64,000 nt of DNA from positions 1 to 64,000 of the forward strand of contig NZ_WNJL01000001.1 in the NCBI RefSeq assembly GCF_010378095.1, read 5' to 3'. Below are positions 56,936 to 59,936 of the stretch, piece by piece. The stretch comes from Acidithiobacillus ferrianus (GTDB lineage Bacteria > Pseudomonadota > Gammaproteobacteria > Acidithiobacillales > Acidithiobacillaceae). Below the pieces are notes generated by a model. That model saw nothing but the letters and a program-made list of their open reading frames with translations. It ran no database searches and had not been told where the DNA came from. Each line of letters begins with the position of its first letter. The stretch's first letter is position 1. Both the position numbers and the translations under genes were made by a program.

Positions 56936-58093
56936 TTATCGTGATAGGGTTCTGGAGATATTTATAGCCGGACTTTCCACAAACCGGTATACAAGGTCAG
57001 AAAGTAAAAATGTAACACCGATGGATAGTGGCAGCAGGACTGGTAAAGGGATTACGCCGTAGAAAGCATGTAACATGGCCAGCAAAACCACCGCGTGCAA
57101 TAAATATAAACTATAAGAAATTTTTCCAAAATATAAAAAAACAGGTCTCGTAAGAGTTTTGATCGCGACCATGTCGTAAGCCGATACAACCAGTAAAATG
57201 GCCGCGCCCGCTACGGCTGGCCAGTCGCGAACCACCAAATGGTGAATCCCTATGCTGCTAATGAAGTGGGGTCCATAGTAATAAAGAGAAAACCCGATGA
57301 TAAACATGCTTATCCGACCTTGTGTGTTGAGTCGGCTATACCATTTTTGTAATGGCTTACGCTGGCTTGCCAGTGTAGCACCAAGGACGAAAGCGAATAT
57401 GTAGTATGGCGTAAAAATATAGGCAGTGAATGATCCAGAGAGAGTTAGCCAAGGCAGCAATTTCCAACCGGACAGAGCAAGAATGCGGATTGCCATGGAT
57501 AACGTGCTAACTGTAAAGAATATAACGATTGAAATCCACCACTTTTTGCCGCGCATAAACAATAAAATGGCAGGAAATAATATAGATATTCTCATCTCCT
57601 GCACTAGTGTCCATATGGTAAAATCATAGCGATTAGTGTCGAACGCATCTATAAATAGTAGAAGATCAAATATTGATTTTGTCGTTATTGAACCAGACCA
57701 AAACTGGTTTACCCATGGATTTAGTCCGGATAGCTTTCCGTGATATAGGAGGTATTCTCCAACGATTCCCAAAAATACCGCAAATAAATATGGTATATAC
57801 AAACGCAGGCCACGCTTCAGGAGAAACTGTATGTAGTTTACACTTGCGTTGTTGATCATAACAAACAACACGTAGCCACTCAACACGAAGAACAATAGCA
57901 CAGCGGATCTTCCCGCCCAGAATATGCCCAATGGGCTATATGATAAACTAGCTATAATTGAAGATAAATTTTTGTAATATGACGACGATGAATTGGCAAA
58001 TATAAGAACATAATGTGATAACATCACAGCCAACGCGGCGATTCCTCGAATCGCATCGAATTGATGGATGTGGCGTCTTTTTTCTACGGACAT
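56936..58093 (-). CDS. Acyltransferase family protein (acyltransferase 3)
   Basis: A 385-aa inner-membrane protein with about 10 helices. The start HQFDAIRGIAALAVMLSHYVLIF is the conserved acyltransferase-3 motif (catalytic-type His in LSHY), and LYLLHAVVLLAMLHAFYG resembles the conserved final part. Such enzymes O-acetylate O-antigen or exopolysaccharide. The gene is strikingly AT-rich against its surroundings and is flanked by an IS, which suggests acquisition by transfer. Confidence 0.9.
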   Translation of the reverse strand: MSVEKRRHIHQFDAIRGIAALAVMLSHYVLIFANSSSSYYKNLSSIIASLSYSPLGIFWAGRSAVLLFFVLSGYVLFVMINNASVNYIQFLLKRGLRLYIPYLFAVFLGIVGEYLLYHGKLSGLNPWVNQFWSGSITTKSIFDLLLFIDAFDTNRYDFTIWTLVQEMRISILFPAILLFMRGKKWWISIVIFFTVSTLSMAIRILALSGWKLLPWLTLSGSFTAYIFTPYYIFAFVLGATLASQRKPLQKWYSRLNTQGRISMFIIGFSLYYYGPHFISSIGIHHLVVRDWPAVAGAAILLVVSAYDMVAIKTLTRPVFLYFGKISYSLYLLHAVVLLAMLHAFYGVIPLPVLLPLSIGVTFLLSDLVYRFVESPAINISRTLSR

Positions 58094-58183
58094 ATCTCTC
58101 CTTCCGTAAAATGACCAATAAACAGTATCATGCTTGATCTGATTTCAGCAATCCCATGTCCACAGGCATGGAACAGAGATGTA

Positions 58184-58195
58184 ATGGATGCCTCC
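58184..58195 (+). repeat. Left subterminal inverted repeat of the IS
   Basis: ATGGATGCCTCC, paired with the right repeat at 59594-59605 with one mismatch. Confidence 0.8.
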
Positions 58196-58317
58196 TCCTA
58201 TGGTAGGACGGACACAGCGGGGAGTGCTCCTAGAAAAGGGAGTCCTCGCTTGAACCGGACGGCATCGAAGTGCCAAGGTGGACATTTCATCCACGAATAG
58301 GTCAAGGAGGACTCACC

Positions 58318-59346
58318 ATGGATTCTACAATTTACGGTTTGGATTTGGCAAAGCGGGTGATGCAACTACACTGGGTGGACATGGGTACCGGTGAAATCCA
58401 CCGCAAGCAATTACAGCGGCGGGCGCTCCTGGAGTTTTTTGCCAACCGGGAACCTGGCATCGTTGCTATGGAAGCCTGCGGCAGTGCGCACCACTGGGCC
58501 CGGGAGCTGCGCAAGCTGGGGCACGAGGTCCGCTTGATCGCCGCGCAGTTTGTGCGGCCCTTCGTCAAGACCAACAAAACCGACGCGGCGGACGCGGCGG
58601 CGATCTGGGAGGCAGCCCAGCGGCCAGACATGCGCTTCGTGACCGTCAAGAGCGTAGAGCAGCAATCCGTCTTGGCCCTGCACCGAATGCGGGAGCAGTT
58701 GGTCAAGATCCGCACCATGCAGATCAACGCGATTCGGGGACTTTTGTACGAGTTCGGTGCCGATATTCCCCAAGGGCGCCAGAAGGGGGAACAGACGATT
58801 CCCCAGGTCTTGGAGCAACTGGAAGAGCAAATCTCCAAGATGACGTTGGACGCGATGCGCGGGCAGCTGGAGCGACTGAAAGCGCTGGATCAGAATATTG
58901 CCGACATTGAGAAATCGCTGACCTTCTGGAAAAAGGATCAGGAAGCTGTATCCCGACTGATGGCCATCCCCGGCGTGGGCTTGCTGACGGCAACGGCGAT
59001 TGTGGCTACCGTGGGCGACATGAAGACCTTTCGTTCTGGTCGGGAGTTTGCGTCCTTCCTGGGCTTGGTCCCTCGACAGAGTGGCACAGGTGGCCGGGTC
59101 CGGTTACTAGGGATCAGCAAACGGGGAGACACCTATCTTCGGTCCTTGCTGACCCATGGGGCGCGGGCGGTAGTGAATCGACAGATCCATAACCGCAATC
59201 CCTGGATCGACCGGTTACTCAGTCGCCGGCCGCACAATGTGGCCGTTGTGGCTCTGGCCAACAAGATGGCCCGAACGATCTGGGCATTGCTGACCAGGGA
59301 CCGGAGCTACGATCCTCTGCACCAGAGGAGCGTAACAGCCGCCTGA
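58318..59346 (+). CDS. IS110/IS1111-family transposase
   Basis: 342 aa. The N-terminal RuvC-like DEDD domain has TIYGLDLAKRVMQLHWVD (first Asp), IVAMEACGSAHHWARELRKLGHEVRLI (Glu) and VKTNKTDAADAAAIWEAAQ (Asp pair). The C-terminal Tnp_20 domain has AIPGVGLLTATAIVATVGDMKTFRSGREFASFLGLVPRQSGTGGRVRLLGISKRGDTYLRSLL with the catalytic-type serine in RQSGTGG. The gene appears intact. AAGGAGGA precedes the ATG by 6 bases, and a 5-bp hairpin (58278-58294) lies just upstream. Confidence 0.95.
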   Translation: MDSTIYGLDLAKRVMQLHWVDMGTGEIHRKQLQRRALLEFFANREPGIVAMEACGSAHHWARELRKLGHEVRLIAAQFVRPFVKTNKTDAADAAAIWEAAQRPDMRFVTVKSVEQQSVLALHRMREQLVKIRTMQINAIRGLLYEFGADIPQGRQKGEQTIPQVLEQLEEQISKMTLDAMRGQLERLKALDQNIADIEKSLTFWKKDQEAVSRLMAIPGVGLLTATAIVATVGDMKTFRSGREFASFLGLVPRQSGTGGRVRLLGISKRGDTYLRSLLTHGARAVVNRQIHNRNPWIDRLLSRRPHNVAVVALANKMARTIWALLTRDRSYDPLHQRSVTAA

Positions 59347-59593
59347 TCCCAGAGGGGTAGTAGCAGAGTTCCGCAGTAAAGAGTTGCGCAGGCAGAAAGA
59401 CGATTGATGGCAGAATAGGTCAGACCGGGGAAGGGAGAACCTGGCAAACTCCAGTCCTTTAAGGACGCGACAGAGATGAGGACCCTTCCAGCGGATTTCA
59501 TCAAGGCCAGCAGAGATAATCTGCGCTACAGGCCGGATATAAGGCAGTAACTCGACCTCAACCGCCAACGATCAAAAGTCGGCTTGCACAAAC
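59347..59593 (+). ncRNA. Putative seekRNA (guide RNA) region of the IS
   Basis: Non-coding. It contains TGGCAAACT (59442-59450), then a hairpin GTCCT-TTA-AGGAC (59454-59466), then ACAGAGATG (59470-59478). TGGCAAACT is the exact reverse complement of the right IS flank (59609-59617). ACAGAGATG is identical to the left flank (58173-58181). IS1111-group elements encode a short target-guiding RNA in this position. The RNA ends are not defined. Confidence 0.5.
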
Positions 59594-59605
59594 GGGGGCA
59601 TCCAT
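59594..59605 (-). repeat. Right subterminal inverted repeat of the IS
   Basis: GGGGGCATCCAT on the plus strand, the inverted partner of 58184-58195. Confidence 0.8.
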
Positions 59606-59617
59606 ATAAGTTTGCCA

Positions 59618-59936
59618 CGGCACCACACATTAAGTTTTGATCAAATGCGGATAAAAAGAGCCATGACTGAACCCATTCAAGAGGCCGTAACCATGCCATA
59701 AGGGGAATGGGCCACGGATTCATGCTGAGCAGTCCGGGTGCTCGGCCATCTCGGACTGTAGCGCCCGCTCCACCGGTTGCTTTGTCGACCTTGCCTGGGG
59801 AGCGCGGCAGGGATAACTTCCCTCTATCGGGCACGTCCCGGACCGGGCGTATCGAGGAGCATATTATCCGCTTGCACCACGCTTTCAGCGCGTACGGCAA
59901 ATTCATGAGGTTGTTTTTGACTTGGGAGTCGCTTAT
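59618..59936. other. Unassigned region between the IS and the HugZ-like gene
   Basis: About 320 bases without an accepted gene. A 77-codon open frame (59707-59940) lacks a ribosome site, and a minus-strand frame across it reads as a shadow. A 6-bp inverted repeat AGTCCG/CGGACT lies near 59731-59756. It may contain the promoter of the next gene or remnants of an older insertion, but I cannot identify either. Confidence 0.4.

Follow-up and report, generated by a model that had tools for sequence, protein, structure and literature searches.

An IS1111-type element in Acidithiobacillus ferrianus whose guide RNA appears to follow both the target and the right end of the element

The closest described systems are the seekRNA-guided IS1111 insertion sequences (ISEc11, ISKpn4, ISPst6 and ISPa11; PMC11187229) and the IS110/IS621 elements with a bridge RNA (PMC11208160, PMC11208158). 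Two papers of 2024 differ on the role of the IS1111 RNA: PMC11187229 describes a target-reading seekRNA, an 82-nt short form of which is enough for movement of ISEc11, and its available text leaves the long form open, whereas PMC11208160 describes donor-binding nucleotides. In the available sections of the latter, bridge RNAs are predicted in 93.0% of IS1111s and the donor-binding nucleotides were inferred from six elements inspected by hand, three from each group. PMC11187229 also gives rules for the anatomy of the group, namely subterminal repeats of usually 11-13 bp, perfect or near-perfect, and terminal extensions of 7 bp on the left and 3 bp on the right. The available text of PMC10214660 records IS110-family elements in all strains studied there, with IS1111 unmentioned in it. 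A literature search that had preprints and most subscription journals outside its scope found no paper covering both IS1111 and Acidithiobacillus.

The window analysed here, a stretch of 64,000 nucleotides from Acidithiobacillus ferrianus, contains an element that belongs to the IS1111 group of the IS110 family, a known kind of which this is a new member (Table 1). Its predicted DEDD-type transposase contains both Pfam domains, PF01548 and PF02371, and has the ISCro4 and IS621 transposases as its nearest solved relatives. The mechanically called reading frame begins upstream of the presumed start codon, at GTG 58270, and a homologue from Acidithiobacillus caldus is annotated at a length matching the ATG. 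The subterminal repeats ATGGATGCC and GGCATCCAT are exact over 9 bp, compared with 12 bp in the A. caldus copy, and the longer non-coding stretch (59347-59596) lies 3′ of the transposase gene as in the IS1111 group. Judged on the family copies, the 7-bp left and 3-bp right extensions are present without target duplication, and the element ends thus agree with the rule of PMC11187229. Taken together, the domains, repeats, extensions and 3′ non-coding region bear out the IS1111 assignment made in the earlier note. The same note had called the element probably intact, which is likely given the open frame, both transposase domains and the existence of two further identical copies, one full and one partial.

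Table 1. Features of the element and its flanks (positions in the window).
Feature	Position	Strand	Basis or remark
Left half-target ACAG, host flank	58173-58176	+	copy alignment, guide match
Whole element, AGATGTA ... ATA	58177-59608	+	1,432 bp; ends common to 8 full copies; uninterrupted sites in relatives; nested YTS05 copy
Left terminal extension AGATGTA, 7 bp	58177-58183	+	constant in 8/8 full copies; 7-bp rule of PMC11187229
Left subterminal inverted repeat ATGGATGCC	58184-58192	+	
Transposase gene	58318-59346	+	presumed start at ATG 58318; Pfam domains
Guide RNA region as modelled	59418-59547	+	RNA ends are those of the model
Target-loop stem, 5′ strand GGAAGGG	59429-59435	+	7/7 pairs with 59483-59489 changed on both sides
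Right-target guide TGGCAAACT	59442-59450	+	flank match
Hairpin GTCCT-TTA-AGGAC between guides	59454-59466	+	covariation, sequence check
Left-target guide ACAGAGATG: ACAG, core AG, then ATG like the element's first bases	59470-59478	+	
Target-loop stem, 3′ strand CCCTTCC	59483-59489	+	covariation
Candidate left-end word ATTTCATC	59495-59502	+	complement of 58178-58185, one mismatch
Second loop: GGCC...GGCC helix and inner hairpin	59505-59534	+	covariation
Right-end word ATATAAG	59537-59543	+	equals 59604-59610 (right-end tail and core)
Right subterminal inverted repeat GGCATCCAT	59597-59605	+	
Right terminal extension ATA, 3 bp	59606-59608	+	copies, uninterrupted sites; 3-bp rule of PMC11187229
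Right half-target AGTTTGCCA, starting with the AG core	59609-59617	+	all flank

The host genome contains eight full copies of the element and three fragments. One full copy (L002) is identical to the window copy across 1,439 bases and a part copy cut by a contig end (L066) is identical across its 487 bases, while four mutually identical copies (family B, L004-L007) are about 77% identical to the window copy. In each of the eight full copies the left repeat is preceded by AGATGTA and the right repeat is followed by ATA-AG. Because the copies share these ends and uninterrupted sites in relatives join there, 58177-58181 (AGATG) is assigned to the element and only ACAG to the flank. The joining is gapless and free of duplication for the L004 site in G008, for the L002 site in G012 and G004 (with a left flank aligned there of 11 bases only) and for the L006-left and L005-right flanks, which are contiguous in G004 with 90/90 bases identical. 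Small departures occur at the L002 site in G009, with a 1-base gap right of the junction, and where L005-left meets L007-right in G006, with two 1-base gaps close to the junction. The empty site of the window copy was not found among the 16 other genomes of the genus, where matches to its flanks were unjoined. In strain YTS05 one copy is inserted within the left guide of another (GGACGCAATAA and AGATAAGG at the split), with nothing duplicated. The anatomy and the junctions of the element are established.

The nested YTS05 arrangement (L072, L080, L081) places a copy inside the RNA guide of another copy, so that the guide's own template served as a half-target. Two further elements, L057 and L060, have a right flank that starts with GG rather than AG, and their right guides read GG at the same place. 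In a distant IS1111 element of genome G142 the left GA is present in 11/11 fetched copies (GA was part of the search pattern), and the right dinucleotide is GA in five, GT in three, GC in two and AA in one of the 11. Since the left dinucleotide is constant and the right one varies, the left core travels with the element and the right core with the target.

Two words in the non-coding region had been proposed in the earlier note as guides matched to the present insertion site. The word at 59442-59450, TGGCAAACT, is the exact reverse complement of 59609-59617, as claimed; the distances given from the flank words to the inverted repeats were also correct, and a 5-bp hairpin, GTCCT (59454-59458) with AGGAC (59462-59466), lies between the two words. 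The word at 59470-59478, ACAGAGATG, does equal 58173-58181, but five of these nine bases (AGATG) are element rather than flank in full copies, and a 9-nt left flank match is rejected. Scored against its own guides, the window copy matches 4/6 bases on the left and 7/7 on the right. None of the 124,922 other window positions, counted on both strands, is as good (left at least 4/6, right 7/7, fixed register).

The relation between guides and flanks was examined across 16 guide pairs carried on a nearly constant scaffold, drawn from 33 listed events. Repeat views of counted insertions (from L070, L072, L073, L075 and L079) and ends without a readable guide were omitted, and L025, although among the 33, has no usable flank. 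The left guide matched its own six flank bases at a mean of 4.75/6 (12 types) compared with 2.24 when permuted (sd 0.37), and the right guide matched its own flank at 3.43/7 (14 types) compared with 1.75 (sd 0.29), rising to 3.96 compared with 2.72 when a slide of 0-2 bases was allowed. No permutation of the 16 guide types reached the observed left, right or slid-right score (0/20,000). The own left guide ranked first in 24/28 events, with 4 tied; the own right guide did so in only 17/31, with 5 tied.

The match extends to a wider set. Among 23 IS1111 elements of the class, the left target word scored 6.39/8 compared with 5.20 permuted and the right target word 7.23/9 compared with 5.76 (22 elements), neither being reached in 20,000 permutations, which ignore relatedness among elements. 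Wrong-sense controls were flat in both the target and the right-end tests of these 23, and the guides occupy the same RNA positions in most of them. Related elements with different guide words occupy correspondingly different sites: the family B site, uninterrupted in G004, reads TGCGCAGGCTCAT, and the two family B guides spell it without a break. The best plasmid match, a copy on the A. caldus SM-1 megaplasmid (NC_015851.1, L123; transposase 91.3% identical), has the same ends and RNA scaffold as the window copy and other guides, and these fit its own flanks (left CAGTCG with TAGTCG, right GCTTCT shared). The target words follow the order of seekRNA-guided IS1111 elements, with the top-strand complement preceding the bottom-strand match. 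The match between guides and flanks is established, and the earlier proposal of a 3′ RNA with two guides for the two target strands, in IS1111 order, is supported by the permutations. The element therefore resembles the seekRNA IS1111 elements of PMC11187229 in its subterminal repeats, its 7-bp and 3-bp extensions, its 3′ RNA, the order of its guides and the absence of target duplication; it is unlike them in having other guides and targets, and in the second, donor-like loop argued for below, which is absent from the available text of that paper.

The fold of the RNA is established by covariation. In 19 sequences, 23 base pairs form five helices, with 97.3% of cells paired compared with 89.4% in shuffled alignments and 12/23 pairs changed on both sides compared with 5.3. 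The covariation score was reached by 0/500 shuffles and the number of further pair types by 2/500; sliding the partners by one column reduced pairing to 52.5-55.9%. Taken singly, the window RNA folds no more stably than its shuffles (z -0.97), and an Rfam search of 58000-59800 gave no match up to E = 1. The RNA model matched once in the window and ten times in the host genome at E up to 1. Across 369 genomes drawn from the class, the scaffold was present in 54, and the element does not by itself constitute the new subgroup that had been suggested for it.

Downstream of the target loop the RNA reads GGCCGG-ATATAAG-GCAG, in which ATATAAG equals the right-end tail plus core. Among 19 elements with known ends, a 7/7 copy of the element's own right end was found in its own non-coding region in 17 and a 6/7 copy in two (mean 6.89 compared with 5.73 permuted, 0/20,000), and the reverse-complement control gave 5.26 compared with 5.20. 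In a second reading, 38 elements were taken (37 of 39 RNA-model matches, leaving out L107 and L124, plus the window copy), 23 of which have clear ends; the left end is atypical in 4 of the 15 omitted, and the other 11 lack a clear repeat. For the 23, the five bases after the right repeat agreed with the word at 4.83/5 compared with 3.76 permuted (0/20,000), the word being exact in 19 and one base off in 4. The 19- and 23-element results are not independent events, as the sets overlap and their members are related. Among the 11 elements without a clear repeat, the word was found near the expected right end in 5 but not in 6. Always in the same RNA context, the word varies with the end through cores AG, CG, TG, GA and TT and extensions ATA, ACA, CTA and AGA; its covariation with the right end is likewise established.

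The candidate left-end word is weaker than the right-end word. A blind search for it was not significant (1,873/20,000 permutations), whereas at a fixed, hand-chosen place upstream of GGCC its two variable bases agreed in 43/62 cases compared with 21.9 (31 elements, 0/20,000), or in 21/34 compared with 11.3 when 17 distinct combinations were counted (2/20,000). With respect to the joined ends, the two second-loop words are arranged just as the target guides are with respect to the target. In one related copy (L044) the donor hairpin and the ATATAAG word are duplicated in tandem.

These observations suggest a mechanism that we consider likely, in which the element is directed by its own two-loop RNA and the AG core is where donor and target recombine. 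The RNA from the region 3′ of the transposase gene would fold into two loops. In the first, TGGCAAACT is the complement of the top strand on the right side of the junction and ACAG-AG reads like the top strand on its left side, so that the two guides would jointly address ACAG^AGTTTGCCA. In the second, ATTTCATC, complementary to the left end, together with ATATAAG, equal to the right-end tail and core, would address the donor, the two words being ordered likewise with respect to the joined ends of a circular form; the transposase would then carry out the recombination at that core with no bases duplicated. We infer transcription of the RNA, its base pairing with DNA, the circular intermediate, catalysis and present activity. 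Such an arrangement would resemble the IS110/IS621 bridge RNA systems in its target and donor loops, shared core dinucleotide and DEDD recombinase, although IS110 elements have the RNA upstream and very short repeats whereas this element has it downstream with long subterminal repeats (PMC11208160, PMC11208158). By analogy with the handshake bases described for the IS110/IS621 bridge RNA (PMC11208158), the AG-ATG tail of the left guide, which matches the first bases of the element, may be a handshake segment.

Alternatively, the RNA may read the target flanks only, with the transposase recognising the ends through the subterminal repeats and ATATAAG being structural or protein-bound. The target matches, the only ones given in the available text of PMC11187229, and the sufficiency of the 82-nt form in ISEc11 fit this reading, as does the weak blind test of the left-end word. 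We nevertheless regard it as doubtful, since the right-end word follows the right end and core across many types, exactly in 19/23 elements, at a level reached in 0/20,000 permutations and always in the same RNA context. A two-loop bridge RNA is expected to contain a donor word that tracks the right end with its core; this is found here as covariation, which on sequence grounds favours such an RNA over a target-only seekRNA in IS1111. A coincidental match of words and flanks, or capture of flank sequence by the element on insertion, is extremely improbable. The left word is mostly element sequence and the right match is missing in L002 and L066, as this would predict; yet the permutations across 16 guide types and 23 distant elements contradict chance, which is rejected, as the earlier note had anticipated, and capture predicts a guide of its own for every copy, whereas identical copies with the same guide occupy different sites.

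The preferred two-loop reading leaves several copies that sit in poorly fitting sites. For copies identical to the window copy, the expectation that their flanks would match the same words held for the left of L002 (CAACAG) but not on the right, where L002 (AGGGTTTTTGAG) and L066 (AGGGTTGCAGCC / AGGGTTGC) match poorly; homologous uninterrupted sites show AGGGTTTTTG to be the true flank right of L002. The right match of L004 is 2/7. A strict match of nine bases on either side, as first proposed, is contradicted by this loose right half in identical copies.

Recombination after insertion may account for the misfits, with identical copies swapping flanks and gene conversion between families replacing guides; we give this explanation an even chance. 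The L006-left and L005-right flanks, and those of L005-left and L007-right (with their two 1-base gaps near the junction), adjoin in relatives. Two copies are mosaics by alignment with family B: L008 matches it over the first 805 aligned columns and departs thereafter, and L003 shows the reverse pattern, with 33 differing columns, all before about 357, and identity beyond. L003 carries guide B but sits at a site that fits guide C better (5/6 and 6/7); conversely, L008 carries guide C and has a left site that fits guide B (5/6). Against this, misjoined identical repeats in a 90-contig assembly would also permute flanks, so that the permuted flanks of L005, L006 and L007 fit recombination and misassembly alike, and the breakpoints of L003 and L008 differ. 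In two relatives a single contig carries both outer flanks of L008, one on each strand, and their exchange is for that reason not established. Replacement of guides by recombination after insertion appears to be the simplest reading of L003 and L008; a reciprocal crossover between the two is rejected, as mosaics are present but the breakpoints differ and no joined flanks were found. Downstream of L008, at L173 1441-1700, lies a relic of another IS1111 element, whose right flank, AGGCTGCTA, reads as the reverse complement of a segment within its own guide region.

The looseness of the right half-target may take the form of a tolerated slide of 0-2 nt relative to the junction, as two elements suggest. 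Of 11 right flanks in YTS05, five fit best at offset 0, three have the guide's ATTG 1-2 bases further right, one is equal at offsets 0 and 1 and two are without a clear fit. In G142, the distance from the junction to the ATG is 7 bases in six of the 11 copies, 8 in four and 9 in one. Our view, held with somewhat more belief than doubt, is that IS1111 RNAs in general have two loops, reading the target and the element's own ends with the core, that guides are swapped between co-resident copies and that the right half slides by 0-2 nt. If so, recombined guides would strand a copy in a site that does not fit its RNA, and a sliding right half would allow a single guide pair to serve functional sites whose spacing varies, a ribosome-binding site with its start codon being one example. 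The readable guide rule would then be wider than the earlier note proposed, since a donor-reading loop seems to be included.

The element group and its relatives constitute a natural experiment in which one scaffold carries many guide pairs and several types of end. Bearing on the disagreement between the two 2024 papers, the data favour a donor-reading loop, name the bases to change, locate the core and show the looseness of the right half-target; the point that deserves specialist attention is how the second loop covaries with the right end.

In 11/11 fetched copies, the G142 element (L174-L184) has a Shine-Dalgarno-like AGGA on its left and a start-like ATG on its right. Its left flank ends with AGGA in 7/11 copies, and in 9/11 the reading frame after the ATG stays open through the rest of the stretch. 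The target motif given for IS900, a member of the IS110 family, in the available text of PMC8141618 is CATGNNNNNNTCTCCTT, which is similar to this AGGA/ATG site.
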